From Actinotalea sp. Marseille-Q4924 (GTDB lineage Bacteria; Actinomycetota; Actinomycetes; Actinomycetales; Cellulomonadaceae): a stretch of 64,000 nt of DNA. The notes beneath the pieces were generated by a model. That model ran no database searches and was not told the origin of the DNA. It saw nothing but the letters and a program-made list of their open reading frames with translations. The stretch lies in contig NZ_CAKAKB010000002.1 of assembly GCF_916618755.1 (NCBI RefSeq), positions 310,001 through 374,000 of the forward strand, in the 5' to 3' direction. A program made the translations under genes and the position numbers. Below, in pieces: positions 16,676-44,443 of this stretch. The first letter of the stretch is position 1; each line of letters begins with the position of its first letter.

Positions 16676-16683
<8 letters not shown>

Positions 16684-18624: not shown

Positions 18625-19814
18625 GCGAAGACGCCCCTGGCACGGCGGTCCCCCGGGTGGGGCTGCTCTACGACTCCGTCAGCGCGAACACCGGCGACAT
18701 CGCGATCGGGATCGCCGGCGCCCAGGAGCTCGCGCGCCACGGACTGGCGGACGTCACCGTCCTGGACCCCTTCGCGCCCGCCACCGACTCGGTCGATGCC
18801 GTCGTGGTGGGCGGCGGCGAGCTGATCCGACCGATCGGTGACGCGTTCTACGACGTCTTCCGCCTCGCCGGGGGCACGGTGCTGAACTCCGCCGGGGTCT
18901 GGCAGGCCGCCGAGGGCCTGGAGCTGTTCAAGGACTACGCGGTGGTGAGCGCGAGGTCGAGCGTCGAGGCGGAGGTCCTGTCCCGGTACGTCGACGACGT
19001 CCGGGTGGTGCCCGACACCACCACGACCATGGAGAGCGCTCCGTACCGGATCCCCGGCGTCGAGGACGGGGAGCCCGTGGTGGGCGTCCACGTGGTCCCG
19101 CACACGCTCGCGCTGTGCCCGGACCTCGTGGAGCTGATCGACGCCATCCCTCACAAGAAGGTCTTCATCCCCTTCACGCACTACAACTACGACGACAGCT
19201 TCATGCGCGCCGTCCCGTTCGACCGGACGAACGCGACCTTCCTGCCGAGGCTGTCGCCGCTCGAGCTGCACGGGGCGATCGGCGGCCTGACGTACGTGGT
19301 GACGTCGTCCCTGCACGCGTCGTTGTTCGCGTACTCCCAGAGCGTGCCGTTCGCCACCGTCCACCAGGAGAAGGTCTGGAACTACTTCTCGGACCGGGGT
19401 CTGCAGCGGCTGGTCTTCCGCTCCTGCGCCGAGCTGCGGGCCGCGCTGGAGGAGATCGAGGCGGGTGAGGTGGACCTGGCCGGGCTCGTCGCCGCGGACA
19501 AGGCCGCCGTCCGAGCCGCCTACGCGGACTACGCGGCGGCCATCCGCCATCGCGCAGGACACCGGTCGGTGCCGAGGTCGGCACCGGTGTCGTCGGAGCT
19601 CCAGTCGGAGAGGCTGACGTCGAGCCAGCGGGAGGGCGTCATCCACAACCGGGACTCCGTGCTGCACCAGCTGTACCTGCGGGTGCTCACCGCCGAGCGT
19701 GGCGAGCGCGTGTGGCACGACGAGGCGGACAGGTTGGCGGCGCGCGTGGCCGAGCTCGAAGCGGCAGCGGCCGTTCCCGCCGACCAGCCCGGATCGCCGG
19801 GAACCGTCGGATGA
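18621..19814 (+). CDS. Polysaccharide pyruvyl transferase family protein
   Basis: This enzyme of 397 residues probably transfers a pyruvate ketal from phosphoenolpyruvate to a sugar of the growing glycan, making it acidic. The N-terminus RVGLLYDSVSANTGDIAIG and the following VVVGGGELIRP fit the pyruvyltransferase (CsaB/WcaK) superfamily. The second domain includes VTSSLHASLFAYSQSVPF, which carries the conserved His, and EKVWNYFSDRGL. After about residue 320 comes a tail predicted to be helical and charged (ERVWHDEADRLAARVAELEA), possibly a coiled coil for oligomerisation. ATGA overlaps link it to both neighbours. In other bacteria pyruvylated wall polymers are the receptor for SLH-domain proteins. 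No SLH protein is seen in this window. Confidence 0.87.
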   Translation: MSEDAPGTAVPRVGLLYDSVSANTGDIAIGIAGAQELARHGLADVTVLDPFAPATDSVDAVVVGGGELIRPIGDAFYDVFRLAGGTVLNSAGVWQAAEGLELFKDYAVVSARSSVEAEVLSRYVDDVRVVPDTTTTMESAPYRIPGVEDGEPVVGVHVVPHTLALCPDLVELIDAIPHKKVFIPFTHYNYDDSFMRAVPFDRTNATFLPRLSPLELHGAIGGLTYVVTSSLHASLFAYSQSVPFATVHQEKVWNYFSDRGLQRLVFRSCAELRAALEEIEAGEVDLAGLVAADKAAVRAAYADYAAAIRHRAGHRSVPRSAPVSSELQSERLTSSQREGVIHNRDSVLHQLYLRVLTAERGERVWHDEADRLAARVAELEAAAAVPADQPGSPGTVG

Positions 19815-20843: not shown

Positions 20844-22049
20844 TCAGGCTGAGGCGGTGACGACGGCCGGCTCGACCCCGAGGACGCCGGTCCCGACGTG
20901 CGGGCCGTCGACGCTGAGGGTGATCGCGTGCGGGATGCGGTGGAGCGTCGCCCCGGACGGCTCGCCGATGCCGACGTTGACGACGTACTGGCCCTCGCCC
21001 AGCGGGAGGCTGGGGAAGGTGAAGTCGACGGTCCGCGCCTCACGGAGCTCACCCAGCTCGACGTCCGCCGTCCTGGAGTTGAACCGGAAGATGGAGTGGC
21101 CCAGCGTCGTCTCGATCGAGACCGCGGCCAGCCAGTCGACCACGGGCACGCGCGGCTCGACATGGAGCCGGATCGTGACCGCGTCCCCCGTGCGGATCCG
21201 GTCGGTCGCCCGGCCGGCGGCATCCAGGAGGACCGCCGAGGTGATGTGCGCCGTGGCCTCCGGGACGTGGTGCTCGACCTCCTCCTCGACGCGCGCCTCC
21301 TCGAAGCCGTCCCGGAGGGCGCGGAGGGCCTGGGCGGGTGCGCCGTCGAAGGCGACCCGACCGTGCTGCAGCAGCACGGCCCGATCGCAGAGGTCGCCGA
21401 CCTGGTCGGCGGAGTGGGACACGAGCACGATCGTCCGCCCCTCCGCCTGGAAGCTGCGGATCTTGTCCATGCACTTGCGCTGGAACGGCTCGTCGCCGAC
21501 GGCCAGCACCTCGTCCACGAGAAGCAGGTCGGGGTCGACGTGGATGGCGACGGCGAACGCGAGGCGCACGTACATGCCGGACGAGTAGAACTTCACCTGG
21601 GTGTCGATGAACTTCTCGATGCCGGAGAAGTCGATGATCGCGTCGATGTGCCGGGCGGTCTCCGCGCGCGTCATGCCGAGGATGGCCGCGTTGAGGTAGA
21701 CGTTCTCGCGCCCGGTGAGGTCGGGGTGGAAACCGGCGCCGAGCTCGAGCAGGGCCGCGAGGCGGCCCCGGCGCTGCACGGTGCCGGTCGTCGGCTGCAG
21801 GATCGCCCCCATGACCTTGAGCAGCGTGCTCTTGCCCGAGCCGTTGGCCCCGATCAGGCCCACCGTGGTCCCTGCGTCGATGGTGACGTCGACGTCCTGC
21901 AGCGCCCAGAAGTCGTCCGTGACGCGGGTGCGCCGGACGCTGCTCACCATCCGCTCCTTGAGCGACTTGTCCTTGTGCAGCGTGAACCGCTTGCTCACCG
22001 AGTCGACCACCACGATCGGGGGCGAGCCGGCGTCAGAGCTCCTGGGCAA
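20844..22049 (-). CDS. wzt: Polysaccharide ABC transporter ATP-binding protein with C-terminal Wzt domain
   Basis: Wzt drives export of a finished lipid-linked glycan through Wzm. The nucleotide-binding domain has Walker A (GANGSGKST, about residue 67), the signature variant YSSGMYVRLAFA, Walker B (LLLVDEVLAVGD) and the switch His in VLVSHS. From about residue 270 there is a ~130-residue beta-rich extension (ITSAVLLDAAGRATD to the end) like the Wzt C-terminal domain that recognises the modified end of the polymer in O9a-type systems. I use a TTG at 22049, which has GGAGGG five bases upstream and overlaps the wzm stop. A GTG at 22013 is the alternative start. It forms an operon with wzm, DUF2304 and the GT2 gene. 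Confidence 0.93.
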   Translation of the reverse strand: MPRSSDAGSPPIVVVDSVSKRFTLHKDKSLKERMVSSVRRTRVTDDFWALQDVDVTIDAGTTVGLIGANGSGKSTLLKVMGAILQPTTGTVQRRGRLAALLELGAGFHPDLTGRENVYLNAAILGMTRAETARHIDAIIDFSGIEKFIDTQVKFYSSGMYVRLAFAVAIHVDPDLLLVDEVLAVGDEPFQRKCMDKIRSFQAEGRTIVLVSHSADQVGDLCDRAVLLQHGRVAFDGAPAQALRALRDGFEEARVEEEVEHHVPEATAHITSAVLLDAAGRATDRIRTGDAVTIRLHVEPRVPVVDWLAAVSIETTLGHSIFRFNSRTADVELGELREARTVDFTFPSLPLGEGQYVVNVGIGEPSGATLHRIPHAITLSVDGPHVGTGVLGVEPAVVTASA

Positions 22050-22998
22050 AGTTGCCCTCCAGTCGGGCGAAGAGGCGCTGAGCGACCCACAGGAGCACGA
22101 GCGACGCGAGGAGGGCGATACCGAGCCGCAGGGGCAGGTCGGCGGGGAACGGCTGGTCCGCGCCCGCCAGCCAGACGCCCTTCTGGAACGCCATGATGGC
22201 GATGGTGACGGGGTTGGAGAGGTAGACCTGCTCGATCCAGCCACCGCCGAGGTACTCGTTCACGTAGCTGTACGAGTACACGATCGGTGAGGCCCAGAAG
22301 AGCAGCAGGATGACGATCTCGACCAGGTGCTGGATGTCCCGGAGATAGACGTTGAGCGCCCCCAGGAGGGTGGCCAGCGCGAGCCCGAGGACCACGACGA
22401 GGAGAACGGCCGGGACGACGTAGAGCACCGTCGGCGTGAACGGGACCGCCCCGACGAGGACCGTGCCGATGAACAGGACCACGACCTGGATGCCGAAGTT
22501 CACCAGCGCCGAGCCGACCGTGCTGAGCGGGAAGATCTCGCGCGGGAAGTAGACCTTCTTGACCAGCCCCGAGTTCGCGACCACCGACCCGGTGCCACCG
22601 CTGACGATCTCGTTGAACAACCCCCAGAGGACCAGGCCGCTGAAGACGAAGATCCCGAAGTCGGGGATCCCGCGGGCGACGCCCAGCACCTCGCCGACGA
22701 TGAGGAAGTAGACCGCCAGCTGGGCGATGGGCTTGAGCAGGCTCCACGCGAAGCCCAGCGTGCTGTTCTTGTACCTCGCCCGGACCTCTCGACGGACGAG
22801 GAGCTGAAGGAGCTCGCGGTACTGCCAGACCGACCGGACCGAGGCGACGGCACCGGCGAGGGCACCGCGCGGGGGACCGACGGGCTTCAGCGGCTGGTCC
22901 GCCAGAGCGGCCAGGCGCGCCTGCCGCTGCCGCTCCGGGTCGCGAGCGGGGGAGAGCCCCGGCGCCATGGCGTCGGCCGGCGCCACTGCGTCACTCAT
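22033..22998 (-). CDS. wzm: Polysaccharide ABC transporter permease
   Basis: Wzm is the membrane channel of the glycan exporter (321 residues). A cytoplasmic start of about 60 residues with an amphipathic segment (VWQYRELLQLLVRREVRARYKNS) leads into the ABC-2 family core. This contains FAWSLLKPIAQLAVYF, about six hydrophobic helices, the loop GLVKKVYFPREIFPLST and the final LYLSNPV-like motif (VYLSNPVTIAIMAFQ). These loops are hallmarks of TagG/Wzm permeases. The ATG at 22998 overlaps the DUF2304 stop by 8 bp. In actinobacteria this exporter type moves galactan or rhamnan-like wall polymers across the membrane for LCP-mediated attachment. Confidence 0.94.
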   Translation of the reverse strand: MSDAVAPADAMAPGLSPARDPERQRQARLAALADQPLKPVGPPRGALAGAVASVRSVWQYRELLQLLVRREVRARYKNSTLGFAWSLLKPIAQLAVYFLIVGEVLGVARGIPDFGIFVFSGLVLWGLFNEIVSGGTGSVVANSGLVKKVYFPREIFPLSTVGSALVNFGIQVVVLFIGTVLVGAVPFTPTVLYVVPAVLLVVVLGLALATLLGALNVYLRDIQHLVEIVILLLFWASPIVYSYSYVNEYLGGGWIEQVYLSNPVTIAIMAFQKGVWLAGADQPFPADLPLRLGIALLASLVLLWVAQRLFARLEGNFAQEL

Positions 22999-23371
22999 CG
23001 CGCGCTGCCGCATCGCCGGGCGACACGGCGGGGCGGACGCCCTCGACCTTCCACCCTGCCTCGTCCAGGGCGATGCGACGAGCGAGCTGCGTGACCTGGC
23101 TCTCCATCTCCCGGAACCGCAGGTAGGACGTCGCCATGTACCCGAGGAACGCGATGATGAGGACGTAGAGGAGCAGGTCGGTCCCGCGACCCACCCCGAC
23201 GATCCTCGCCAGCGCGTTCCAGACGTCGGGGAAGAGCACGGATGCCGCTGCGAAGGCGATGAAGCCGAGGAGAGCGACCCGCCGCAGGGCCTGGTGGCGA
23301 GACCCGCGAGGGATCCGCAGGCTCAGCAGGCCGACCAGGCCGATACCGATGAGCAGAACAATTTTGATCAT
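22991..23371 (-). CDS. DUF2304 family membrane protein
   Basis: This small integral membrane protein (126 residues) has three hydrophobic helices (about 3-18, 31-48 and 65-85) followed by a cytoplasmic, charged tail (REMESQVTQLARRIALDE). The family is regularly encoded next to dolichyl-phosphate-mannose-synthase-like GT2 enzymes and is believed to support them at the membrane, though its biochemical role is not established. Here it lies 7 bp downstream of exactly such a GT2 gene and overlaps wzm by 8 bp, so all four genes should be on one transcript. The ATG at 23371 is the natural start. Confidence 0.9.
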   Translation of the reverse strand: MIKIVLLIGIGLVGLLSLRIPRGSRHQALRRVALLGFIAFAAASVLFPDVWNALARIVGVGRGTDLLLYVLIIAFLGYMATSYLRFREMESQVTQLARRIALDEAGWKVEGVRPAVSPGDAAARDE

Positions 23372-27331: not shown

Positions 27332-27838
27332 CTAGATCTCCGGTCCGACGGGGATGGTGGCGATCGCGTCGGTGTTGACGGCGACCCAGTCGCGGTCGTT
27401 GCCTCCGAGCGCGCGGTAGGTGGCGTAGCTGGTGATGTTGCGGCGGGTGCCGTTCTCCACGTACCAGATGGCGCCGGTGGGCATCCGCAGGAAGCGGCCG
27501 ACGGCGACCCCGGACCTCACCAGGTTCGCGCAGGTGGTCGCGTCGAGCGTGGTGCGTGGCACGGTCGCCCAGTGGGATGCGACGGACGCCGCCACGGGGT
27601 GGAGGCGACCGCCGGTCGCGAGGTAGCTGGTCCCGGAGCACACGACGAGGTTCTGCGGGGTCCCCGGTGCGGTGGTGTAGGCGGCGAGGTCCGCCTCGCG
27701 CCGCAGGACGAGCGGGCCCGTACCGAGGTTGGCCATCCGGTCCCAGCTCCCGATGTGGTGCTTCGTGCCGAAGCCGTCGATGAGGTACACCGAGGCTGAC
27801 GCCGTCGAGTACGCCAGCGTGCCCGGGCCCAGCTGGTC
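27332..27838. repeat. 507-bp near-identical repeat, copy A
   Basis: This matches 33283-33789 at a constant offset of 5951 with about 15 differences, so it is roughly 97% identical. It covers the last three repeat units and stop region of the amidase gene. Identity falls sharply at the AGCTGGTC boundary near 27838, which points to recent gene conversion or unequal crossing-over. Confidence 0.9.
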
Positions 27839-30064
27839 GGCACCCTGGGGCAGGCTCCGGACGACGCGGCTGTCGACCGTGGCGATCCGTGGACCCCCGC
27901 TCCCGGCAGTGATCCGCAGCGCGTCGTCCCACGACGGGATGGAGCGGCGCACGTTGCGCTCCATGCGGTAGACGGCCGGCGAGTCCGGCGTCTTGACGAG
28001 GACGGGAGCGGACGTCGAGGACGACGTCGTGAAGAGGTCGAGGACTGCCGTGGACAGCCGCGGCGGGCTCCCGGTCGCCGCGGCGTCGGCGATCTGGGAC
28101 TTCGTCGCCCCGTTGAGCAGCCATGTCGCGGTCCCCGTGGCGGAGCCCGCGAACAGCGCGAGCGGCTCGTCCGACCACGGCATCGCCAGCAGGCTGGCCG
28201 AGTCGAGGTGCCCGGACGGGAGGCGCCCGATCGGTGTGGACGGGAGCACCCCGTCCGCCATAGGGACCAGCTGACCCGCTCCGACGAGGAACGGCCGACC
28301 GGAGGTCCGCGACACCACGACCGTGTCAGGACGGACGGCGGGCTGCCCGACCGCGAGGTGCGACACGGCGTCGTCCGTCACCGTGATGGGCGCGCCGTCG
28401 AAGCCCGCCCACGCGAGCGACTGGAGATCGGGGGCCTCCCGGCGCTTCCCGGCGTCGATCCCCCAGTGGCGCCCGCTCGGTACACGGACCCCCGTGGTCA
28501 TCATGGGCCCGGTGGTGAACTCCGCGATCTGCGCGTCGTCCAGAAGCCTGGCCTGCGAGCACGAGAAGCCCCATCGCCAGACCATGTCGCAGCTGCCGAA
28601 CGGGTACTTGTTGACCCCGTCCACGAGGTACACCATCGTGTCCCGGGCCAGGATGAGCCGACTGAGGACGTCCCCCGTGGTCTTCGAGTCCAGGAACGCC
28701 TTGGACACGTAGCCCACGGGTCCGAGCGCACCGAACATGCGCAGGGTGTCCGCGTCCTTGACGGGGTACTTGTGCGTCGACGTGACCAGGTAGGTCGGTC
28801 CCGCCGCGGTCTCCCTCACGAGGTCCGGCGGGTCCACCGTGGCGGCGGTCCAATGAGCGATGTCACGGATCGCCGGCAGGGCGGAGTAGCCCCCGTTCCC
28901 GGGGCACGCGGTGTACGCCACGTCCCGGTGCCCGAACACGCGCGGCAGGGTCACCGTCTGGTCGGAGAACTTCGAGTTCTCCCCGCCGGCGGTGTAGAAC
29001 TGCGCGCTCTGGCGGGGGTCGACCCCGTAGTACCCGAGGCGCAGTCCGATGATGTAGCCCACCGAGTCCAGGACGGCCCGGGGGGGAGCGGCGTCGTAGG
29101 TGCCCAGCATGGAGACGCCGAGGAACCCGGTGTTGAAGCCTCCGGCGTGGACGCCGATCACCGGGAGGTCGAGGCTCCGCGCACGGCCCTCGTAGATGTT
29201 CCCCCACTTGTCGACGACGAAGTTGTACCCGATGTCGCACCAGCCGCGGGTGCGGATGTGGTACAGCGCGTCGTTGCGCAGCTGCTGCATGGCCTCGGCG
29301 ACCGTGGAGTAGGCGTTCGACCCGGCGGTGTGGTGCACGACGGCACCCTTGAGGGCGGCCGCGGTGTCAGGGGTGCAGGTCTGCGCGGGCGCGCCCCACT
29401 CGGACCGGGGGATCACCCGGCGGGACCCGGCGGCCAGGGCGGCTTCGACAGGCTGCGAGGAGGTCTCCTCGGGCGTGCCGACGAGCGCGAGCTCGAGGTC
29501 GTCGGGCGCGGTTCCCGCCGCGGAGGCGAAGGAGAGCTGGACCTCGGTGGCCTCGCCGATCCACAGGGGTTCCGTGCCACCGCGCAGCCCGGTCGTGGCG
29601 TCCGGGGTACCGGCGTCGGGAGCGGTGCCCGCGTCCAGGGGGTGCCACGGCGACCAGTCCCCGCCCGTGCGGTACCGGGCCTGCGGGAGGAGACGAGCGC
29701 CGTCCGACGCGGCCGACCACGTGAGACCGATCGTCTGCACGTCGCCCGTGTCGATCACCGGCGTCATGACGCGGTCGCGCACCGTCGTCTCGGCGACCAC
29801 CGTCCCGGCCTCGACCTGGGGCAGCAGGGTCCGGCCCGTCAGCGGCTCCACCTGGGACACCGCGATCGGCAGCTCCCGGATCGTCACGCCGTCCTCGGGT
29901 CCGGCGGCGGAGGCGGCACCGAGCGTCGACGGGACGGCACTACCGGTGGACGACGCGGGCAGGCTCGTCGCTGCCGGCTGCGCCGGCGTCGCGGCCGCCG
30001 GCGCAGCCGGTGCGGCGGGTCCCGCCAGGAGGAGGGCGCCGAGAAGAACGGCCTGGAGACGCAT
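27332..30064 (-). CDS. Secreted PGRP-type N-acetylmuramoyl-L-alanine amidase with C-terminal nine-repeat module
   Basis: This exported protein of 910 residues probably cuts the amide bond between muramic acid and the stem peptide. It has a signal peptide with an Ala/Pro-rich tail (residues 1-35) and a beta-rich spacer. The PGRP/amidase domain at about 235-395 has VVHHTAGSN (first zinc His near 241), YNFVVDKWGNIYEGR and GHRDVAYTACPG (second His, Cys). From about residue 421 to the end is the ~490-residue repeat module shared with the next two genes, with units such as TMVYLVDGVNKYPF and SVYLIDGFGTKHHIGSWD. GAGGT lies seven bases before the ATG at 30064. Its last 507 bp are almost identical to those of the gene at 33283. 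It lies 62 bp downstream of the metalloprotease gene, so co-transcription is likely. Confidence 0.92.
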   Translation of the reverse strand: MRLQAVLLGALLLAGPAAPAAPAAATPAQPAATSLPASSTGSAVPSTLGAASAAGPEDGVTIRELPIAVSQVEPLTGRTLLPQVEAGTVVAETTVRDRVMTPVIDTGDVQTIGLTWSAASDGARLLPQARYRTGGDWSPWHPLDAGTAPDAGTPDATTGLRGGTEPLWIGEATEVQLSFASAAGTAPDDLELALVGTPEETSSQPVEAALAAGSRRVIPRSEWGAPAQTCTPDTAAALKGAVVHHTAGSNAYSTVAEAMQQLRNDALYHIRTRGWCDIGYNFVVDKWGNIYEGRARSLDLPVIGVHAGGFNTGFLGVSMLGTYDAAPPRAVLDSVGYIIGLRLGYYGVDPRQSAQFYTAGGENSKFSDQTVTLPRVFGHRDVAYTACPGNGGYSALPAIRDIAHWTAATVDPPDLVRETAAGPTYLVTSTHKYPVKDADTLRMFGALGPVGYVSKAFLDSKTTGDVLSRLILARDTMVYLVDGVNKYPFGSCDMVWRWGFSCSQARLLDDAQIAEFTTGPMMTTGVRVPSGRHWGIDAGKRREAPDLQSLAWAGFDGAPITVTDDAVSHLAVGQPAVRPDTVVVSRTSGRPFLVGAGQLVPMADGVLPSTPIGRLPSGHLDSASLLAMPWSDEPLALFAGSATGTATWLLNGATKSQIADAAATGSPPRLSTAVLDLFTTSSSTSAPVLVKTPDSPAVYRMERNVRRSIPSWDDALRITAGSGGPRIATVDSRVVRSLPQGADQLGPGTLAYSTASASVYLIDGFGTKHHIGSWDRMANLGTGPLVLRREADLAAYTTAPGTPQNLVVCSGTSYLATGGRLHPVAASVASHWATVPRTTLDATTCANLVRSGVAVGRFLRMPTGAIWYVENGTRRNITSYATYRALGGNDRDWVAVNTDAIATIPVGPEI

Positions 30065-30126
30065 GGGTGTGACCTCTGTCGACAGGGACGCCGCGTGACC
30101 GCCGGCTGTCCGTGAGGTGTCCGTGA

Positions 30127-33045
30127 TCAGACGGACGGACCGATCGGGATGGTGGCTAGGGCGTCGTTGTCCACGGGTACCCAGTCCCGGTTGTTGCCAC
30201 CGAGCTGAAGGTAGCGGCTGTAGCTGCTCACCTGACGCCGGACACCCTGGTCGACGTACCAGATGTTCCCGTCGGGGAGCCGCAGGAAGCGCCCGACGGT
30301 CTTCGCGGCCGTGCGGAGGTTGGCGCACGTCTCGTCCTGCAGCGGGGTCGACGGCACCGCTGCCCAGTGCACGGAGGCGTCCGCGGCCACGGGGTACAGG
30401 ACGCCACCGGAGGCCAGGTGCGGGCGGCCCTCGCAGACGACGACGTTCTTCGGGGCGCCCGCCGCCGTCGGGTAGGCGGCGAGGTCGACGTCACGACGTA
30501 GGTTGAGCGGTCCGGTCCCCAGGTTGGCCATCCGGCCCCACGTCCCGATCCGGTGCTTGATGCCGTAGCCGTCGACGAGGAACACCGCCGGTGACGAGGG
30601 GGAGTACACGAGGGACGCGGGACCGAGCTGGTCCGCGCCCTGCGGGATGCTCCCGACGACACGGGCGTCCACCGTCGAGATCCTGGGTCCGCCGCTGATC
30701 GCCGCCAGGCGGACGGCGTCGTCCCACGAGGGGATCGAGCGTCGGGTTCCCTCGTCCATCCGGTAGACGGCCGGGGAGTCCGGGCTCTTGACGAGGACCG
30801 GCGCCGGCGTCGACGGCAGCGTGGTGAAGCGGCTCAGGACGGCCGCCGACAGGACCGGCGCCTCGCCCACGGCCTCCGGTGCCGTGACCTGGGACTTCGT
30901 CGACCCGTTGACGAGCCACGTGGTCACGCCGTCGGAGGACCGGGCGAAGACGTTCAGGGTCGGCTTCCACGAGGCGGCGAGGAGGCCGGCGGAGTCGAGC
31001 CAGCCGCTGGGCAGCGCCTTCATCGGCGTCGTCTCGTGCACCCCGCGGGCGAGCGGCACGAGCGAGTCGGCGGTGGTCAGGAAGGCGGATCCCGTCGACC
31101 GGGAGCGCACCACCATGTCCGGCCGCAGGGCGGGCGCGCCGGTGCGCAGGTGGTCCAGGGCCTCGTCCGTCACCTCGATCGGGGCGGCGGCGAAGCCGTT
31201 CGCGGTCAGCGAGGCGGTGTCGGGGGCCTCCCGCAGGAGACCGGCCTCGATGCCGTAGAGCCGGCCGCTTCGCGTCCGGACCCCGTTGGTCAGGGTCGGG
31301 CCGGGGTAGAACGCGGCGATCTGGGCGTCGTCCAGCACCTGCGCCTGCGTGCAGGAGAGGCCGAAGGTGGCCACCATGTCGCAGCTGGGGAAGGGGTAGC
31401 GGTGGGGCCCGTCGACCAGGTACACGGTGCCGTCCTGCCCCTTGACGATGGGCGCCAGCGGGGCGCCGGTGGGCACCGGGTCGAGCACCGTCGGCACCGT
31501 GGTGCCCACCGTGCCCAGGGCGCTCAGACGCCTCAGCGTGGACGCGTTCGGCACCGGGTGCTTGGCCTTGGACGTGACGAGGTACACCGTGGGGTCCTGA
31601 GTGGTGCGGGCCAGCGCGGGCGGCGCGCCCGTGGGCGTGACCGTGACGCGGGCGACCGTCCCCTGGCTCACGACCGTCATCCTCATGCCCACCGCGGGGA
31701 TGTCCCACGACCGGCCGACGGCCATCGACGGCGAGCTCAGCGGCGTGGTGGTCTCAGGCTTCATGTCGAGCAGGTAGGTCACCGGGTAGCCGGAGGCCTC
31801 CGTCGTCCGGAGGCGGACCTGGACACCTGCCCACGCCGGCACGCGGGTGTCCCGGCCCGTGGCTGGGCGGAACTCCGCGAAGAGCACTCCCTGCGCCACC
31901 GGGACCGCTACCGACCGCATCTCGCCGATCGAGCTCATCGGGTGCAGGTCGACGGTCGTGGAGGTCCCGGGCCGGACCCACGACACCTTGGCGAACTGCA
32001 GGTGGTCGGCCATCGCTGCGTTGAGGCTCCCTGACGGTCGCTGGGTCGCGATGCCCATGACGTCCGCCTGGTCGCCGTAGGCACGCACGTCGCAGGAGGA
32101 CAGGTCGGCGAGCGACACCTCGACCCCGTCGCTGCGGCAGCTCTGCGCGGCGTTGGCGTGCCCGAGGCCGAGGTTGTGCCCGAGCTCGTGCGCGAAGACG
32201 TCCATGAGCGGGTAGCCGTTCACCCAGATCATGCCGCCACCGATCGTGGCCATCCCCGCCCAGCCGCCGCACGGCGCGTACGTGGGGAAGTACACGAGCA
32301 CGTGCGTGGTGCCCGACGGTGCGGCCACGCCGTGGGCCTGCAGGGCCGCCTGGAAGATCTTGTTGCGGTCGCAGCTGCCGGGGTCGGGGATCGACCTCCA
32401 GTCCCGGGCCGATGCGGTGACCGCGAGGCGGCCACCGCTCTGCTCGCTCCAGTAGGACGCCGTCTCCCTGGCGCGGGTGAGCAGGTTCGCCGCGGTCGTG
32501 TCCGGGGCGGTCCAGTGGACGGGCAGGACCAGGAGCGTGCGCGTCGTCGCGGCCGCGAGCGTCGGCGCAGCGTCTTCGGCAGCCGCCACCTGATCCGCGG
32601 ACGGCGTGGCATCGGTCGTGACCTCGGCGATGCGGGTGTCGGTCGCCTGGGCCTCGGGTGCCTGCTCGAGCGCCTCGACGGCCTCGGCGACCGTGGCGGC
32701 CTCGCCGGGCACGATGGTGACCTCGACCGGCGTGCCGGTGGGGCCGGAGGGGAGCTCGACGTCGTCCGCCACCTCGAGGAGGGCACCGTCCACCTCGACC
32801 AGCGTGTCCACCACCATCCCCGCGTCGGCAGGAGCGTCGTGGTCGTCGGTGACGACCTGCACGAGCGTCCCGTCCGCGACCAGCACGTCCTCCGGTGCGG
32901 TCGACGCCGGGGTGGTGGGCGGCTGAGGCGTGCCGGCGGCAGGCGCGGTGCCCGCCACGAGAGCCACGAGGAGAAGACCGGTCGACGGCGCGACGAGCCG
33001 CCGAGCGCGACGGCCAGAGAGCCACTGCGTACGCATGATCACCAT
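30127..33045 (-). CDS. Secreted zinc metalloprotease (metzincin type) with C-terminal nine-repeat module
   Basis: This exported protein (972 residues) starts with a basic n-region, a hydrophobic signal segment (about 20-38) and a Thr/Pro-rich stretch. A propeptide-like part follows. The catalytic domain has the extended zinc motif HELGHNLGLGH at about 286-296 and a downstream Met-turn-like DVMGIAT, the metzincin pattern, close to peptidase M11/gametolysin-like proteins. From about residue 483 it carries the same ~490-residue module as its two neighbours (DGTVYLVDGPHRYPF, SPAVFLVDGYGIKHRIGTW), but more diverged. The start may be 33045 or the ATG at 33036 (MRTQWLSG). The protein may mature or shed wall proteins. 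Substrates are unknown. Confidence 0.92.
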   Translation of the reverse strand: MVIMRTQWLSGRRARRLVAPSTGLLLVALVAGTAPAAGTPQPPTTPASTAPEDVLVADGTLVQVVTDDHDAPADAGMVVDTLVEVDGALLEVADDVELPSGPTGTPVEVTIVPGEAATVAEAVEALEQAPEAQATDTRIAEVTTDATPSADQVAAAEDAAPTLAAATTRTLLVLPVHWTAPDTTAANLLTRARETASYWSEQSGGRLAVTASARDWRSIPDPGSCDRNKIFQAALQAHGVAAPSGTTHVLVYFPTYAPCGGWAGMATIGGGMIWVNGYPLMDVFAHELGHNLGLGHANAAQSCRSDGVEVSLADLSSCDVRAYGDQADVMGIATQRPSGSLNAAMADHLQFAKVSWVRPGTSTTVDLHPMSSIGEMRSVAVPVAQGVLFAEFRPATGRDTRVPAWAGVQVRLRTTEASGYPVTYLLDMKPETTTPLSSPSMAVGRSWDIPAVGMRMTVVSQGTVARVTVTPTGAPPALARTTQDPTVYLVTSKAKHPVPNASTLRRLSALGTVGTTVPTVLDPVPTGAPLAPIVKGQDGTVYLVDGPHRYPFPSCDMVATFGLSCTQAQVLDDAQIAAFYPGPTLTNGVRTRSGRLYGIEAGLLREAPDTASLTANGFAAAPIEVTDEALDHLRTGAPALRPDMVVRSRSTGSAFLTTADSLVPLARGVHETTPMKALPSGWLDSAGLLAASWKPTLNVFARSSDGVTTWLVNGSTKSQVTAPEAVGEAPVLSAAVLSRFTTLPSTPAPVLVKSPDSPAVYRMDEGTRRSIPSWDDAVRLAAISGGPRISTVDARVVGSIPQGADQLGPASLVYSPSSPAVFLVDGYGIKHRIGTWGRMANLGTGPLNLRRDVDLAAYPTAAGAPKNVVVCEGRPHLASGGVLYPVAADASVHWAAVPSTPLQDETCANLRTAAKTVGRFLRLPDGNIWYVDQGVRRQVSSYSRYLQLGGNNRDWVPVDNDALATIPIGPSV

Positions 33046-33217
33046 CCGGGATGGACCCAGCGCGGGTCGGGTCTGACCTCCTCTGGTCGGCCCTGATGGC
33101 GTGATGCTGAGGATTTCACCCGCGATATCGCCCGCTCCTCGGTCCGGGCACGCGAGCGCTGTCCTGTTCTGTGCGCGTTCGCGGTGATTCGCGCGCGGTC
33201 ATGTGCGCAGGGTCACG

Positions 33218-33240
33218 TCCCGGGCGTCACGACCCCGGGA
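33218..33240. terminator. Hairpin downstream of the lysozyme-like protein gene (weak terminator candidate)
   Basis: TCCCGGG at 33218-33224 pairs with CCCGGGA at 33234-33240 around a 9-nt loop, 43 bp past the stop of the gene at 33283. There is no T-tract. It could end or attenuate that transcript before the metalloprotease gene. The rest of the 237-bp gap (33046-33282) shows no gene. Confidence 0.3.
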
Positions 33241-33282
33241 GGGTGCACGTCCGACCTGGCTCGACGACCCGCCGAGCGCGGC

Positions 33283-33789
33283 TCAGATGTCGGGTCCGAC
33301 GGGGATGGTGGCGATCGCGTCGGTGTTGACGGCGACCCAGTCGAGGTCGTTGCCTCCGAGCGCGCGGTAGGTGGCGTAGCTGGTGATGTTGCGGCGGGTG
33401 CCGTTCTCGACGTACCAGATGGCGCCGGTGGGCATCCGCAGGAAGCGGCCGACGGCGACCCCGGACCTCACCAGGTTCGCGCAGGTGGTCGCGTCGAGCG
33501 TGGTGCGTGGCACGGTCGCCCAGTGGGATGCGACGGTCGGTGCCACGGGGTGGAGGCGACCGCCGGTCGCGAGGTAGCTGGTCCCGGAGCACACGACGAC
33601 GTTCTGCGGGGTCCCCGGTGCGGTGGTGTAGGCGGCGAGGTCCGCCTCGCGCCGCAGGACGAGCGGGCCCGTCCCGAGGTTGGCCATCCGGTCCCAGCTG
33701 CCGATGTGGTGCTTCGTGCCGAAGCCGTCGATGAGGTACACCGAGGCTGAGGCCGTCGAGTACGCCAGCGTGCCCGGGCCCAGCTGGTC
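33283..33789. repeat. 507-bp near-identical repeat, copy B
   Basis: This is the partner of 27332-27838 in the same orientation, 5951 bp apart. The two copies flank the whole metalloprotease gene and parts of the two outer genes. Recombination between them would delete that stretch and leave one chimeric gene. Confidence 0.9.
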
Positions 33790-35661
33790 CGGACCGGCGG
33801 GGAGCGCTCCGAGGACCCGGCGGTCGACGGTCGTGATGCGTGGGCCACCGGACGCGGCACTCACCCGCAGGGCGTCGTCCCACGAGGGCAACGACCGCCG
33901 GCGTCCCTCCTCGATGCGGTAGACCGCCGGGCTGTCGGCGCTCTTGAGGAGCACCGGGGCGCCGACGGAGCCGGCATCGGCGAAGAGGTTCAGCACGGTG
34001 GGGGAGACGGGCGTGGCCGCGGCGGTGCCGGCGGCCGCCGCGTCGAGCACCTGCGTCCTCGAGGAGCCGTTGAGCAGGTAGGTCGAGCCGGACTCCGTGG
34101 ACCGGGCGAAGAGGCCGAGGCTCGGGCTCGCCCAGGGCATCGCGAGGAGGCTCGCGGAGTCGAGCGGGCCGATCGGGAGGGTCCGCAGCGGCGTCGTCTC
34201 GTAGGCGCCGGGGGCCAGCGGCAGCAGCTGGCCGCTCCCGACCAGGAACCGCGCGCCCGAGGACCTCGACTGGACGACGGTGTCCGGACGGACCAGCGGC
34301 GCGCCGAGTCTCAGGTGGTTGAGCGCCTGGTCGGTGACCGAGATCGGAGCGGGTGCGTACCCGGCCGCGCCGAGTGTCGCTGCGTCGGGCGCCTCGAGCA
34401 CGGAGCCCCACTCCACGGCGTAGAACCGCCCGGAGTTCGTCCTCACCCCGTTCGTCAGGGTCGGTCCCGTGTAGAAGGCCGCGATCTGCGCGTCGTCGAG
34501 GAGCTGGGACTGGGTGCAGTCGTACCCGTAACGCGCCACCATCGTGCAGCTGTCGAACGGGTACTTGTGAGGGCCGTCGACCAGATAGACCATCGTGTCC
34601 CGGCCGCGGATGAGCTTGTGCATCACGCCGCCGGTGGGCCTCATGTCGAGGTACACCTGGGAGACGACGCCCACCGGCCCGAGGGCGCTGAGCATGGCGA
34701 GCGTCGCAGCGTCCTTCACGGGGTACTTGTTCTGCGTCGTGACGACGTAGACGGTCGGGTCCGTGGCGGTGCGCAGCAGGTACCCGCCGAGCGTCTGCGT
34801 CGACCCGAACCAGTCGGTGAAGATGCGCCAGAAGTTCCGGTTGCCGTAGGCGCTGCAGGCGTCACCGGTCCCGTAGAGGTTGGCGAGCGCGGCGGCGTTC
34901 GGCTGGTAGGGCGTGTAGTTGTACAGGCCGGCGGTCGCCTGGTTCTGGATGTAGACGGGTCCGCTGCCGCAGGCGATGTCCGGGTGGTAGCGGATCGAGT
35001 TGAGCTGCCGCGCCCGGTGCGCGTACCGCGTGGGGTTGAGCGCGTACCAGTTGAACTGCCGGGCGGCCGAGTACACCTGGTTGAAGAAGCCGTAGTACTG
35101 GGCGTCGCACGGGGCACCGTCGGGGCAGCCGAAGCCGGTGGCCGACCGGTACTGGGTGTCCGTCGGAGAGCTGGCCGTGACGAGGCTCTGCTCCTTCTCG
35201 AGCAGGACGAGGAGGACCCGCGGGTTGATCCCGCAGCTCGCGCTCACGCCGGCGATGATCTGGGCGGCCGTCTCGACGCGACCGCCGGTGTAGCCGGCGC
35301 AGAGACCCGGCTCGGCGGGCTTCGCCGTGGTCGTCGTGCTGTACCGGGCCAGGCACGGGTTGCCCCGGGCCGAGGCGCAGGTGCGCTGCTGGGCGTCGAG
35401 GAACCGCTGGACCGCGGGGGCGTCCATCGTGCTCGAGTTCCAGAAGACGGCGTCGCTGATGAGGTTGCCCGCGTCGAACAGCGCACCGGTGAGCGCGGCC
35501 GCCACCGGTGCCGCGGGAGCCGCGGTGAGCGCAGCCTCGCGTGGGCTCGCCGTCGCGGCGGCCGCGGTCGGCGTCGCAGCGGTACCGGCGCCGACCGTCG
35601 CGACGGCGACGACCGCGGCGAGCAACCCCGTGGCCAGCCGTCGCAGGCGACGGAGCCTCAT
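33283..35661 (-). CDS. Secreted lysozyme-like ("hemagglutinin"-type) protein with C-terminal nine-repeat module
   Basis: This is an exported protein of 792 residues: a basic start, a signal segment (about 10-32), a domain at about 55-295 and the ~490-residue repeat module. The N-terminal domain has GINPRVLLVLLEKEQSLVT near 145-160, then GFGCPDGAPCDAQYYGFFN and RYHPDIACGSG. Similar proteins in related bacteria are often labelled hemagglutinin without evidence. The helix-plus-Glu (EKEQS) pattern and several Cys pairs look to me like a lysozyme/transglycosylase-type fold, so a peptidoglycan or glycan hydrolase is my tentative reading. The ATG at 35661 overlaps the lipoprotein stop (ATGA). The last 507 bp are almost the same as those of the amidase gene. 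Confidence 0.85.
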   Translation of the reverse strand: MRLRRLRRLATGLLAAVVAVATVGAGTAATPTAAAATASPREAALTAAPAAPVAAALTGALFDAGNLISDAVFWNSSTMDAPAVQRFLDAQQRTCASARGNPCLARYSTTTTAKPAEPGLCAGYTGGRVETAAQIIAGVSASCGINPRVLLVLLEKEQSLVTASSPTDTQYRSATGFGCPDGAPCDAQYYGFFNQVYSAARQFNWYALNPTRYAHRARQLNSIRYHPDIACGSGPVYIQNQATAGLYNYTPYQPNAAALANLYGTGDACSAYGNRNFWRIFTDWFGSTQTLGGYLLRTATDPTVYVVTTQNKYPVKDAATLAMLSALGPVGVVSQVYLDMRPTGGVMHKLIRGRDTMVYLVDGPHKYPFDSCTMVARYGYDCTQSQLLDDAQIAAFYTGPTLTNGVRTNSGRFYAVEWGSVLEAPDAATLGAAGYAPAPISVTDQALNHLRLGAPLVRPDTVVQSRSSGARFLVGSGQLLPLAPGAYETTPLRTLPIGPLDSASLLAMPWASPSLGLFARSTESGSTYLLNGSSRTQVLDAAAAGTAAATPVSPTVLNLFADAGSVGAPVLLKSADSPAVYRIEEGRRRSLPSWDDALRVSAASGGPRITTVDRRVLGALPAGPDQLGPGTLAYSTASASVYLIDGFGTKHHIGSWDRMANLGTGPLVLRREADLAAYTTAPGTPQNVVVCSGTSYLATGGRLHPVAPTVASHWATVPRTTLDATTCANLVRSGVAVGRFLRMPTGAIWYVENGTRRNITSYATYRALGGNDLDWVAVNTDAIATIPVGPDI

Positions 35662-36212
35662 GACGTGACCTCCATCGGCTCGGAGACGGCGACGCCACCC
35701 TCCGGGTCGGCGTACTCCAGGCGTGCGGTCGCCTCCCCCGGCGGCACCGGGAGGCGCAGCCCCGAGCACACGGTCGTCGTCACGTCCGGGAACGCCGGTG
35801 CGGACGCACGATGGTCCGTGCCGGCCACGGTCACGACAGCCGTGCAGGTGCCGCCCTCCTCGACGACGCCGGTGACGACACCCGTCACCTCGACCGTCCC
35901 GTCGTCGAGACGGGCCGCCTGGACGATCGACGGCGGCGACGCGGAGGCGGGTGCGCTCGACGGCGGGGCGGGCTCCGTCGGGTCGCCGTCCGCCGGGGGT
36001 TCTGCCGTCGGCGGTGTGGCCGGGTCGTCCGAGGGCGCCGGGGCCGGCGTGGCAGGGGGCGTCGTCCGCTCCGTCGCCGTCGCCGTCGCCGTCGGCGTGG
36101 CCGTCGGCGGGTCGGCGGCGGTCGGCCCGTCGCCCAGGGCGCAGCCGGTCAGCGTCGCGAGCGCGACGGTGAACCCTGTCGCGGCCGCGTACCAGTGCCC
36201 CCGTGCAGCCAT
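35658..36212 (-). CDS. Putative lipoprotein with Pro/Thr-rich linker
   Basis: This 184-residue protein has a typical lipoprotein signal. The basic MAARGHWYAAATG is followed by a hydrophobic run and the lipobox LTGC, with the lipidated Cys at about residue 24. Next comes a long Pro/Thr/Ala/Ser linker (repeats like PTATPTATATAT) that would cross the wall. A ~75-residue beta-rich C-terminal domain (SIVQAARLDDGTVEVTGVV onward) contains one Cys pair. I do not recognise the domain. Its stop overlaps the start of the lysozyme-like protein gene (ATGA), so the two products are made together. A role in anchoring, folding or regulating that protein is an inference from the coupling only. Confidence 0.82.
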   Translation of the reverse strand: MAARGHWYAAATGFTVALATLTGCALGDGPTAADPPTATPTATATATERTTPPATPAPAPSDDPATPPTAEPPADGDPTEPAPPSSAPASASPPSIVQAARLDDGTVEVTGVVTGVVEEGGTCTAVVTVAGTDHRASAPAFPDVTTTVCSGLRLPVPPGEATARLEYADPEGGVAVSEPMEVTS

Positions 36213-36315
36213 GTCCCGTCCGCCCTCTCTCAGCCCCCTCCTCGCATGGTGCCACGTCGCGGGCCGAGGCCGAAGGACCTCCGTCCACAACACGACAGGT
36301 CGTCGACCGCGCGGG

Positions 36316-39732: not shown

Positions 39733-40362
39733 TCAGCCGTCCGTGGCCCGGCCGAGGGACGACAGGTACGCCACGACGTCGTCGTACCGGGGGAGGAGTC
39801 CCTCGCGGAGGGCCGAGTCGAGCGTCGGCGCGTCCGCGTCCTTGTCCGACAGCGCGGGGGTCACGGGGCGACCGGCCCTGTCGACCTCCGGCCACCGGAT
39901 GCCGAGAGCCGGATCGAGGGGGTGGATGCCGTGCTCCCGCTCGGGGGCGTACCCCGACGAGCACAGGTAGGCCACCGTGGACCCGTCCTCGAGCGACATG
40001 AAGGCGTGACCGAGACCCTCGGGGACGTAGATCGCGCGGCGGTCCACGTCGTCGAGCAGCACGGAGTCCCACCGGCCGAAGGTGGGGGAGCCGACGCGGA
40101 TGTCGACCACGACGTCGAGCACCGCACCTCGCACGCAGGTGACGTACTTCGCCTGGCCCGGAGGCACGTCGGCGAAGTGCACGCCCCGGACCACGCCCGA
40201 CGCGGAGACCGACATGTTGGCCTGCTGCAGGTCCAGCGGGTGCCCGACGGCACCCTCGAAGGTCGTCGACCGGAACCACTCCAGGAACGTGCCGCGGGGA
40301 TCGGTGAACTGGCGGGGGGTGAGCTCGAGGGCTCCGGCGACTGCGAGCTCGCGATGCTCCAC
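39733..40362 (-). CDS. rmlC: dTDP-4-dehydrorhamnose 3,5-epimerase
   Basis: RmlC inverts carbons 3 and 5 of dTDP-4-keto-6-deoxyglucose, step three of dTDP-L-rhamnose synthesis. The 209-residue cupin protein has TPRQFTDPRGTFLEWF, the substrate-binding QQANMSVSASGVVRGVHFAD (catalytic His in VRGVHF), KYVTCVRGAVLDVVVDIRVG, and VPEGLGHAFMSLED with the second conserved segment, then the Tyr of AYLCSSGYAPEREHGI. The GTG at 40362 has AGGAGG seven bases upstream. It is divergent from rmlD. The ~106-bp gap holds a TAGTCT element facing rmlD with a TCGACG about 16 bp before it. Confidence 0.95.
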   Translation of the reverse strand: MEHRELAVAGALELTPRQFTDPRGTFLEWFRSTTFEGAVGHPLDLQQANMSVSASGVVRGVHFADVPPGQAKYVTCVRGAVLDVVVDIRVGSPTFGRWDSVLLDDVDRRAIYVPEGLGHAFMSLEDGSTVAYLCSSGYAPEREHGIHPLDPALGIRWPEVDRAGRPVTPALSDKDADAPTLDSALREGLLPRYDDVVAYLSSLGRATDG

Positions 40363-40468
40363 GAACCGACCTCCTGGGTGCTGGGGGATGCCAGCCTAAC
40401 GAGTCGACGACGTCCGCCGGCTCGGTAGTCTCGCGGCGTACGTGGCGGTCGAGACGAGGGAGCACGCG

Positions 40469-41323
40469 GTGCGCTGGATGGTCACGGGGGCCGGGGGCAT
40501 GCTCGGGCAGGACCTGGTCGCCCTCCTGCGCGACGGCGGGCAGGAGGTGACGGCGCACGGCCGGGACACCCTCGACGTGACGGACCTGGACGCGGTGCGT
40601 GGCGCGGTGGGCGGCCACGACGTCGTCGTGAACTGCGCCGCATGGACCGCGGTCGACGAGGCGGAGACCGCCGAGGCGGAGGCGTTCCGGGTCAACGCGG
40701 TGGGTGCGGCTGCGGTGGCCCGCGCGGCGCGCGACGCCGGGGCGCGGCTCGTCCACATCTCCACGGACTACGTCTTCGACGGTGAGGCCACGAGCCCGTA
40801 CGCGGAGGACGCCCCGCTCAACCCTCGCTCGGCGTACGGACGGACGAAGGGTGCGGGGGAGTGGGCGGTGCGGGCCGAGGCCCCGGACCACCTGCTCGTC
40901 CGCACGTCCTGGCTCTACGGGGCGCACGGCAGCTGCTTCCCCCGCACGATCGCCCGGCTCGCACGGGAACGACCGTCGCTCGAGGTGGTCCGCGACCAGC
41001 GCGGGCAGCCGACGTGGACGCGGGACCTGGCCGACCTCGTCGTCAGGCTCGTGGACGCCGGAGCGCCGGCGGGCACCTATCACGGGTCGGCGTCGGGCAG
41101 CACCACGTGGTTCGACTTCGCGCGGCTCGTCGTCGCGGCGGACGGCAACGACCCGGACCGTGTGCTCCCCACCACCAGCGACCGGTTCCCCCGGCCGGCA
41201 CCTCGACCGGGGTACTCGGTGCTCGGTCACGAGGCGCTGCGGCGCGCGGGAGTGGCCCCTGTGAGCGGGTGGGACGAGCGCTGGGCGCAGGCCGCGCCGA
41301 CGGTGCTGGCCGCCGTCCGCTGA
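40469..41323 (+). CDS. rmlD: dTDP-4-dehydrorhamnose reductase
   Basis: RmlD reduces the keto-sugar to dTDP-L-rhamnose with NADPH, the last step of the pathway. The 284-residue extended SDR has [16 protein letters not shown] at the start, [13 protein letters not shown], the catalytic [11 protein letters not shown], the Tyr/Lys pair in [12 protein letters not shown] and [11 protein letters not shown] start at the GTG at 40469 because AGGGAG lies six bases upstream and the Rossmann motif follows directly. A GTG at 40442 is in frame but would add an unusual leader. A -10-like TATCAT lies 15 bp past its stop, before gmd. Confidence 0.95.
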
Positions 41324-41408
41324 CCGTGCCCGCGAGGTATCATCGGCGGCTGACCGGCTGACGGCCGGCGGCATCGATCCAGAACCCGAGTACGAGAGTT
41401 GGCTATCT

Positions 41409-42437
41409 GTGGCCGAGACGACGGCAAGGCGTGCGTTCATCACCGGGATCACCGGTCAGGACGGGAGCTACCTGGCAGAGCTGCTGCTCTCGAAGGGGTA
41501 CGAGGTCCACGGGGTCATCCGGCGGGCGTCGACCTTCAACACGAGCCGGATCGAGCACCTCTTCACGGATCTCCACGAGCAGGGCGTCCGCCTCTTCCTC
41601 CACTACGGCGACCTCTCGGACGGCTCGCGCCTCGCCATGCTGCTGGACCAGATCCAGCCGCACGAGGTGTACAACCTCGCCGCGCAGTCGCACGTCCGGG
41701 TGAGCTTCGACGAGCCGGAGTACACGGGCGACTCGACCGGGCTGGGCACGACACGGCTGCTCGAGTCCATCCGCATGGTGGGTCTCGACTGCCGCTTCTA
41801 CCAGGCGTCGAGCTCCGAGATGTTCGGCGCGACGCCGCCGCCGCAGCACGAGGAGACGCCGTTCTACCCGCGGTCGCCGTACGGTGCGGCCAAGGTCTAC
41901 TCGTACTGGGTCACGCGGAACTACCGCGAGGGCTACGGCATGTTCGCGGTCAACGGCATCCTCTTCAACCACGAGTCACCGCGGCGCGGAGCGACGTTCG
42001 TGACACGGAAGATCACCCGTGCCGTCGCGCGGATCGCGGCAGGCGAGCAGGACCTGCTGTACATGGGCAACCTGGACGCGGTGCGGGACTGGGGCTACGC
42101 CCCGGAGTACGTCGAGGCGATGTGGCGGATGCTGCAGCACGACGAGCCGAACGACTACGTGGTCGCCACGGGTACCGCCTACACGGTGCGTGACTTCCTG
42201 CAGATCTCCTTCGAGCACGCCGGTCTGGACTGGGAGAAGTACGTCCGGTTCGACGAGCGCTACCTGCGCCCCACGGAGGTCGACGCCCTGATCGGCGACG
42301 CGAGCCGGGCGCGCGAGGTGCTCGGCTGGGAGGCCAGGACGCTGACGCCCGACCTCGCCCGGCTCATGGTCGACGCGGACCGCGCTGCCCTCGAGGTCGA
42401 GGGCAAGCCGTGGATCGACAGCGTCGTCGCACGGTGA
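41409..42437 (+). CDS. gmd: GDP-mannose 4,6-dehydratase
   Basis: Gmd converts GDP-D-mannose to GDP-4-keto-6-deoxymannose, the precursor of GDP-L-fucose and GDP-rhamnose. The 342-residue protein has [17 protein letters not shown] at the start, [25 protein letters not shown], the catalytic [12 protein letters not shown] (Ser/Glu), the Tyr/Lys in [12 protein letters not shown], and [17 protein letters not shown]. These are unmistakable for the family. The GTG at 41409 starts the conserved region. Its stop overlaps the next glycosyltransferase start (GTGA), and fcl lies one gene further on, so GDP-L-fucose is the expected product. GDP-mannose must come from elsewhere: no mannose-1-phosphate guanylyltransferase is in the window. 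Confidence 0.97.
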
Positions 42438-43216
42438 CCGCCGGAAAGGTCCTCGTCGTCCTGCCGACGCTGGGCGACCGTCTGGAGGAGCTCGCCCAGA
42501 CCCTCGCGACGGTCGACGAGCAGCGCGAGGACGTCGAGCTCACCCTGGTCGTGGTGCTCCCCGCCACGGCGGAGGCGGCTCGGGCACTCGCGTCACGCCA
42601 CGGCGCCGTGCTGGTGGAGGACCCCAAGCAGGGGATCTCCGAGGCCATGAACCGCGGCATCGCGGCGGCCACGGACGAGGAGTTCTACGCCTGGATCGGG
42701 GACGACGACCTCTTCCGCCCCGGTGCGCTGAAGCTGCTGCGGTCGATGCTGCTGGGTCACCCCGACGCCGTGCTCGCCTACGGTGCGTGCGACTACATCG
42801 GGCCGGACGGCCGCGTGCTCGGGACATCCGCTGCCGGCAGGGCCGCGCAGTGGATCCTGCCCTGGGGCCCGAACCTCATCCCCCATCCCGGTTCCATGTT
42901 CCGGCTCGAGCACCTCCGGGCCGTCGGCATGATCGACACGAGCCTGCGCTACGCCATGGACCTGGACCTGCTGCTCGCGCTGCGGCGCCGTGGCCCGTTC
43001 CTGGCGACTCGTCAGCGCGTCTCGGCGTTCCGCTGGCACCCCGGCTCGACGACCGTGTCCGACCGCCGTGCGTCCGGTGCCGAGGCGCGGCGGGTCAAGT
43101 ACAAGTACCTGCCCGCGTGGGCCCGTCCCGTGAGCGCCCTCTGGGAGGTGCCGGTGCAGGCCGCTGCGACCGTGGCGAGCAGACGGCTCAGCCAGCGGGT
43201 CGCCCGCGCGTCCTGA
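42434..43216 (+). CDS. Glycosyltransferase family 2
   Basis: This 260-residue GT-A enzyme has [19 protein letters not shown] at the start, a [19 protein letters not shown] segment, the metal site [16 protein letters not shown] (DDD) and [28 protein letters not shown], the last carrying an acceptor-side Asp. The [10 protein letters not shown] and WIGDDD phrases are typical of small GT2 enzymes acting in O-antigen clusters. It overlaps gmd by four bases and precedes fcl, so a fucosyl- or deoxyhexosyl-transferase role is suggested by position. The sequence gives no direct evidence for the donor. The 199 bp after it contain TAATGT at 43299, a possible -10 for fcl. Confidence 0.9.
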
Positions 43217-43415
43217 GAGGTGCGCCGTCCTCCGTCGTGGCGGACGTCGCACGACCGGGGTCCGCTGCACCGGGGATGAGGTGCTGCTCCCCAGAGGGTA
43301 ATGTTCCGAGGTCCGCCGGAGGTCACCTCCGCGGGGCGTAGGTTCCGGGGCTCTGCTGCGAGCGCCGGACTGGGTTGGGACGACCGGCGTGGCCGGTCGG
43401 AGAGGCGGCGACTGC

Positions 43416-44378: not shown

Positions 44379-44418
44379 CGGAAGGGCACCGAGGCCCGCG
44401 ACGACCGACCCGGCGAGG

Positions 44419-44443
44419 TGAGGAGCGGCTCGCGCTCTCCTCA
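44419..44443. terminator. Bidirectional hairpin between fcl and the flippase-like gene
   Basis: TGAGGAG at 44419-44425 pairs perfectly with CTCCTCA at 44437-44443, and inner CG pairs extend the stem. It lies between two convergent genes and includes the stop codon of the minus-strand gene. There is no U-tract, as is common in high-GC actinobacteria, so function as a terminator is likely but unproven. Confidence 0.45.

Follow-up and report, generated by a model that had tools for sequence, protein, structure and literature searches.

Three neighbouring genes on the minus strand of a 64,000-nucleotide stretch of the Actinotalea sp. Marseille-Q4924 genome (the window; contig NZ_CAKAKB010000002.1, positions 310,001 to 374,000) encode exported proteins, A, B and C, that end in one common module of about 499 residues. 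This module is probably a covalently linked chain of nine units of the kind found as R repeats in EccB, a component of type VII secretion, serving as a multivalent anchor on a glycan of the cell wall. Docking on a wall polymer appears to be the best reading of the module, given its array of repeats, its lack of a known family, its place in a glycan locus and its linkage to rml, wzm/wzt and LytR-CpsA-Psr (LCP) genes elsewhere.

The C-terminal modules of the three proteins align over their whole length, with identities of 59% (A and B), 71–72% (A and C) and 59% (B and C). This confirms the common ending proposed in a preliminary description of the window that was made from the letters alone. End-to-end alignment places the module of A at 27332–28831 and that of B (498 residues) at 30127–31623; the module of C (499 residues) lies at 33283–34782. 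These are the only copies in the genome in a search at E ≤ 10. Neither Pfam nor NCBIfam has a model for the module, in agreement with the earlier remark that it has no named family.

Nine repeat units of about 50 residues had been proposed, and the division is borne out by profile comparison. With borders placed by hand on the module of C, the units are 51–61 residues long, and each of the 36 possible pairings of their profiles could be aligned, from units 6 and 9 (E 1.7e-17) to the weakest, units 3 and 5 (E 0.0021); rows had to match more than 25 residues per unit to be kept. Pairs without unit 8 mostly spanned at least 40 columns and kept the register, while of the eight pairs that include unit 8 five aligned only over 16–29 columns, often with just the first part of that unit. 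The comparison puts unit 1 at 34612–34782, unit 2 at 34447–34611, unit 3 at 34282–34446, unit 6 at 33769–33951, unit 7 at 33598–33768 and unit 9 at 33286–33444, all on the minus strand. A consensus over 251 units has arginine or lysine at position 3 (68%), an aromatic residue (Y, F or W) at position 11 (80%) and lysine or arginine at position 18 (68%). The module alignment has 28 members, three of them window sequences; half of the 28, and units 4, 5 and 8, do not enter the unit alignment. As the unit model in most cases fails to find these same three units, the 2–10 units that it counts per protein in 76 proteins are lower bounds. The two units with cysteine pairs are indeed present: they are units 2 and 8, and the pairs are invariant across the three window copies and absent from the three Saccharibacteria rows of the alignment.

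The kinship to EccB rests on profiles. We aligned 13 EccB proteins and compared profiles with hhalign, where the E-values are those of a single pairwise comparison and not of a database search. The whole module matched the EccB profile at E 4.2e-6 (probability 86.9%), with a score of 55.0 against at most 21.3 for the controls (39 shuffles and one reversal). The unit profile, with rows under 40 residues left out, matched EccB at 190–241 (E 2.9e-6, 88%), 414–462 (E 2e-5, 77%) and 72–125 (E 6e-5, 65%). In the parts of its text cited here, the report on EccB1 (PMC4769845) places the repeats, in the numbering of another EccB, at 74–124 (R1), 185–241 (R2), 267–320 (R3) and 391–445 (R4). R1, R2 and R4 were matched by the unit profile at E 6e-5 to 1.3e-7, with scores of 28.6–34.7 against 13.8 for the best control; the match to R3 was weak (EccB 271–321, E 0.048 and 0.13). 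Each of the nine single-unit profiles had its best match at an R position of EccB (E 1.5e-5 to 0.02). Neither the N-terminal domain (N-domain) of C nor 34 other tails, aligned with one another, gave a match to the R repeats by hhalign.

Against all Protein Data Bank (PDB) sequences the unit profile found EccB3 first (whole chain E 3.5e-5, best single stretch 0.013–0.017) and then EccB5 (0.02), and the rows below these look like chance. Whole-module profiles gave no match to PDB sequences at E ≤ 10. The Pfam model of EccB, PF05108, had matches at E ≤ 1 in six of the 28 module-alignment members, the best at 1e-6 and none of them module C of the window, and it found no match in A, B or C at that threshold. 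On these comparisons we regard the units as relatives of the EccB R repeats. The preliminary description had missed this kinship.

The predicted fold is of the same type. The AlphaFold2 model of module C (pLDDT 91.3, pTM 0.69) consists of alpha+beta units. In the DSSP string, read by eye, the order of elements in most units is three strands, one helix, another short strand and a second helix, and some elements are short. Read in this way, most units have a four-stranded sheet and two helices, as an EccB R unit is reported to have in the cited parts of PMC4769845. A propeller-like or solenoid fold had been suggested before; the propeller part is not supported, since propeller blades need helix-free four-stranded antiparallel sheets and DSSP assigns helices to all units of the model. 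VIA-align with module C returned nine EccB entries, with large root-mean-square deviations, and one phage endolysin wall-binding domain; unit 9 was aligned with the binding domain of LysIME-EF1. There was no propeller entry and no PlyCB among these ten rows, and absence from that list excludes nothing. A fold search of BFVD gave one match at E ≤ 0.001, to a 115-residue Rhodococcus phage protein (E 7.1e-6, root-mean-square deviation 10.3), and several phage lysins of high probability but weak E; we take these matches to phage proteins as suggestive only.

The likeness to EccB thus lies in a 50–60-residue alpha+beta unit and not in the whole protein. EccB is a membrane component with an N-terminal anchor and a core domain around which four R repeats are set, whereas here nine contiguous units stand behind unrelated domains of secreted enzymes, and the complete EccB architecture is not found in A, B or C. 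Phage endolysin wall-binding domains such as those of LysIME-EF1 and PlyCB form rings of separate chains; in our proteins the units are joined in one chain.

The locus around the three genes is that of a wall glycan, as the preliminary description had held in placing them within a rhamnose/fucose locus, and Pfam assignments support this. The interval 39733–46557 holds RmlC, RmlD, GMD, a GT2 glycosyltransferase, a GDP-fucose-synthase-like epimerase and an RmlA-type nucleotidyltransferase; family and position are the basis for the names RmlA and Fcl. Overlapping reading frames on the minus strand (20844–23013) encode a glycan ABC exporter, Wzm and Wzt, the latter with a Wzt_C domain (Pfam ABC_tran, Wzt_C and ABC2_membrane). 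An epimerase (Epim), a GT2 glycosyltransferase (GT2a) and a pyruvyl transferase, which often adjoin the module elsewhere, lie on the plus strand (16676–19814; Pfam). The minus-strand gene at 12906–14159 encodes an LCP protein (Pfam LytR_cpsA_psr, E 8.4e-39), a family that ligates wall glycans. The locus makes nucleotide sugars, dTDP-rhamnose among them and probably also GDP-fucose.

The same association is seen in other genomes. From each of 25 further genomes in the order we read a region of some 20 kb containing the module (10.6 kb for L185), together with 17 control regions, 16 from eleven of these module genomes and one from G409, and searched for homologues by tblastn at E ≤ 1e-15. L158 (no module), the three loci of the window's own genome, and L159 and L160, whose genomes came from the genus search and not from the order list, stood outside this sample. 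An rml or wzm/wzt gene lay within about 10 kb of the module in 15 of the 25 loci, compared with none of the 17 controls. An LCP gene was near the module in six further loci and again in no control, a category added after the result had been seen. Homologues widespread without a wall-glycan locus were therefore not what we found: 21 of the 25 had rml, wzm/wzt or LCP genes within about 10 kb, and only L168, L169, L174 and L185 had none of these. In G035, outside the sample, a module-bearing amidase adjoins homologues of RmlA, RmlC and RmlD.

The GT2a glycosyltransferase of the window cassette, used as a marker (17599–18624, E ≤ 1e-60), occurs in five of the 396 order genomes, four of which have the module, and in the three that are not our own the two lie within 7 kb of each other. 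In G013, a second genome of the genus, the module gene stands among homologues of Wzt (62%), Wzm (65%), GT2a (71%) and Epim (68%). In the Saccharibacteria loci L081 and L085 it occurs together with homologues of GT2a (53–60%), Epim (49–52%) and Wzm/Wzt (30–34%). The earlier proposal that the module docks on the polymer of its locus is supported indirectly by this linkage; the binding of glycan by the units, the identity of the glycan, the recognition of rhamnose and the roles of the enzymes are what we infer.

Several observations weigh against a strict link. Ten of the 25 module loci have neither rml nor wzm/wzt nearby, so that the module is not restricted to such loci, strong as the linkage is. 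G409 has the cassette glycosyltransferase and no module within the 19.9 kb read. By a loose criterion, glycan genes lie near 30 of 34 relatives of C that lack the module, against 45 of 46 module loci, and L100 has homologues of rml, Epim and Wzm/Wzt beside a C-type protein whose tail, by eye, is LGFP-like.

In the main rival reading, which we consider unlikely, peptidoglycan or some other general component of the wall is what the units bind, and the locus linkage only reflects the clustering of wall genes. The presence of glycan genes near module-less relatives favours it. So do four of the six LCP-linked loci, where module amidases stand beside LCP while rml and wzm/wzt are absent from the vicinity (L173, L176, L179, and L161, represented by its smaller copy L015); of the other two, the protein of L175 has no Pfam match and the last is L177. 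In the parts of their texts cited here, authors have also described PlyCB, and suggested EccB1, as peptidoglycan-binding, and have speculated likewise for the LysIME-EF1 domain. Against the rival, sugar and cassette genes are commoner at module loci than at module-less ones: RmlA in 26 of 46 against 8 of 34, RmlC in 21 of 46 against 3 of 34, GT2a in 16 of 46 against 0 of 34, and Wzt in 32 of 46 against 15 of 34, counts that ignore kinship. Moreover, the two genomes of the 19 in the genus that carry the GT2a marker are the same two that carry the module.

Anchoring on a wall polymer also agrees with the way the tail is exchanged. The module is found in 26 of 396 genomes of the order (E ≤ 0.001), in 10 of 396 genomes of a phylum sample (E ≤ 1e-5), and in two of 19 genomes of the genus, our own and G013 (single-protein query); the first two counts include our own genome. 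A scan of named genomes led by conserved stretches of the N-domain of C confirmed 454 loci. Among the best 80 of these, a biased sample, 46 have the module, in several families of Actinomycetota and in three Saccharibacteria. The domains that precede it are the C-type N-domain, Amidase_2 and GH25, and in the window also the metzincin. Among the 34 module-less relatives of C in the same 80, LGFP is found in seven and CBM_4_9 in four, and many others have no wall-binding Pfam domain. In G013 (locus L159, 8253–11309) a C-type protein has about six units followed by three SLH domains, within the same glycan cassette. The window module itself has no match to LGFP, CBM_4_9 or SLH, and at E ≤ 1 the models of LGFP (PF08310) and SLH (PF00395) hit none of the three window proteins. 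A tree was made of 80 N-domains (79 loci and the window; L080, in which the script found no N-domain motif, was left out). On it, 13 changes are required to explain where the module is present, and well supported branches force at least eight of them. These repeated changes, and the swaps with LGFP, CBM and SLH, indicate that the tail behaves as an exchangeable targeting part. L099, L115, L117, L120 and other module-less relatives have another repeat in the tail, of the form GWALDPDT...HVYVDG, behind the C-type N-domain.

It is less probable still that the units form an assembly scaffold, packing together or on a partner protein in an S-layer-like or secretion-associated surface complex. The pairing of EccB R repeats through their helices (PMC4769845) and the tetramer ring of the LysIME-EF1 binding domains (PMC7098653), each as given in the parts cited, would suit such a role. 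The genome, however, has no EccB (PF05108, none at E ≤ 10), unrelated N-domains bear the module, and LGFP, CBM and SLH replace or trail it as they would a targeting tail. That A, B and C attack neighbours, with a competitor's wall glycan as the target or, for Saccharibacteria, that of the host, is very improbable: an exported set of an amidase, a protease and a third presumed enzyme, and the same architecture in Saccharibacteria, would fit it, but the genes sit in the locus where the cell makes and exports its own glycan, and this speaks for maintenance of its own wall.

A wall-glycan anchor could work as follows. A signal peptide would export each of the three proteins. The locus would make a rhamnose-containing polymer, which Wzm and Wzt would export and the LCP protein would probably tie to peptidoglycan. 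The C-terminal chain of units would then hold the proteins on the polymer through many weak contacts, keeping the amidase, the metzincin and the third presumed wall enzyme at the junction of polymer and peptidoglycan.

The catalytic parts differ in how well they are defined. A PGRP amidase, a metzincin and a lysozyme-like protein had been named, and the first two stand. Protein A (27332–30064; open reading frame 27332–30328) matches Amidase_2, the PGRP-type amidase family of Pfam (E 1.4e-13), and protein B (30127–33036; open reading frame 30127–33045) matches M11, M66 and other metzincin-type Pfam models, best M11 (E 3.2e-5), around the motif HELGHNLGLGH at residue 286 of the open reading frame. 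For protein C (33283–35661; open reading frame 33283–36288) the lysozyme-like label is unproven, as its N-domain has no family match in Pfam at E ≤ 1; among PDB sequences, too, this domain has no convincing relative. The starts (30064, 33036 and 35661) were picked by eye on a signal-peptide-like N-terminus. The N-domain of C (34774–35634) is widespread in Actinomycetota, with strongly conserved YTPYQPN, YGNRNF and KE motifs.

The 3' ends of the A and C genes (about 27332–27811 and 33283–33762) are 95–100% identical over some 480 bases, against 50–78% in the rest of the module. This suggests recent gene conversion between the two paralogues.

Saccharibacteria are epibionts of actinobacteria. 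Their five N-domains form one group on the tree (97/93), from which an old transfer across phyla behind their copies seems possible. L081, L083 and L085 have a module protein together with homologues of the window's Epim–GT2 genes, and the GC content of L081 and L085 is 41%. No match that would point to a phage or plasmid origin came up when module C was compared by tblastn (E ≤ 0.01) with 50,697 records from phages and 72,556 from plasmids.

The fold of the unit was already known. What appears to be new is the covalent joining of nine units in secreted wall enzymes, the link of this array to wall-glycan cassettes and its kinship to EccB, none of which we found in our searches of the open-licence literature. 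EccB R1 is reported, in the part of the account cited, to resemble PlyCB, a polyrhamnose binder, and wall binding by EccB has been suggested from PlyCB by authors who add that experimental support is still lacking (PMC4769845, in part); the main text of PMC4848087 does not contain the word 'rhamnose'. A bolder proposal, which we make tentatively and with considerable doubt, is that the EccB R repeats, the PlyCB-type phage domains and the module are one ancient rhamnose-glycan recognition domain. In Actinobacteria and Saccharibacteria, long chains of it would fix wall enzymes to exported rhamnans, and through it the type VII machine would grip a rhamnose-containing part of the wall.

The role of the outer domain of EccB in type VII secretion is unsettled. 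Here a unit of the EccB R type stands outside any secretion machine, in secreted enzymes encoded beside genes for the synthesis and export of a rhamnose-containing glycan, and its ligand should thus be testable in a simple and harmless system. A previously unannotated module of Micrococcales, other Actinomycetota and Saccharibacteria now has a structural model, and it is a candidate wall-targeting tail for wall enzymes.
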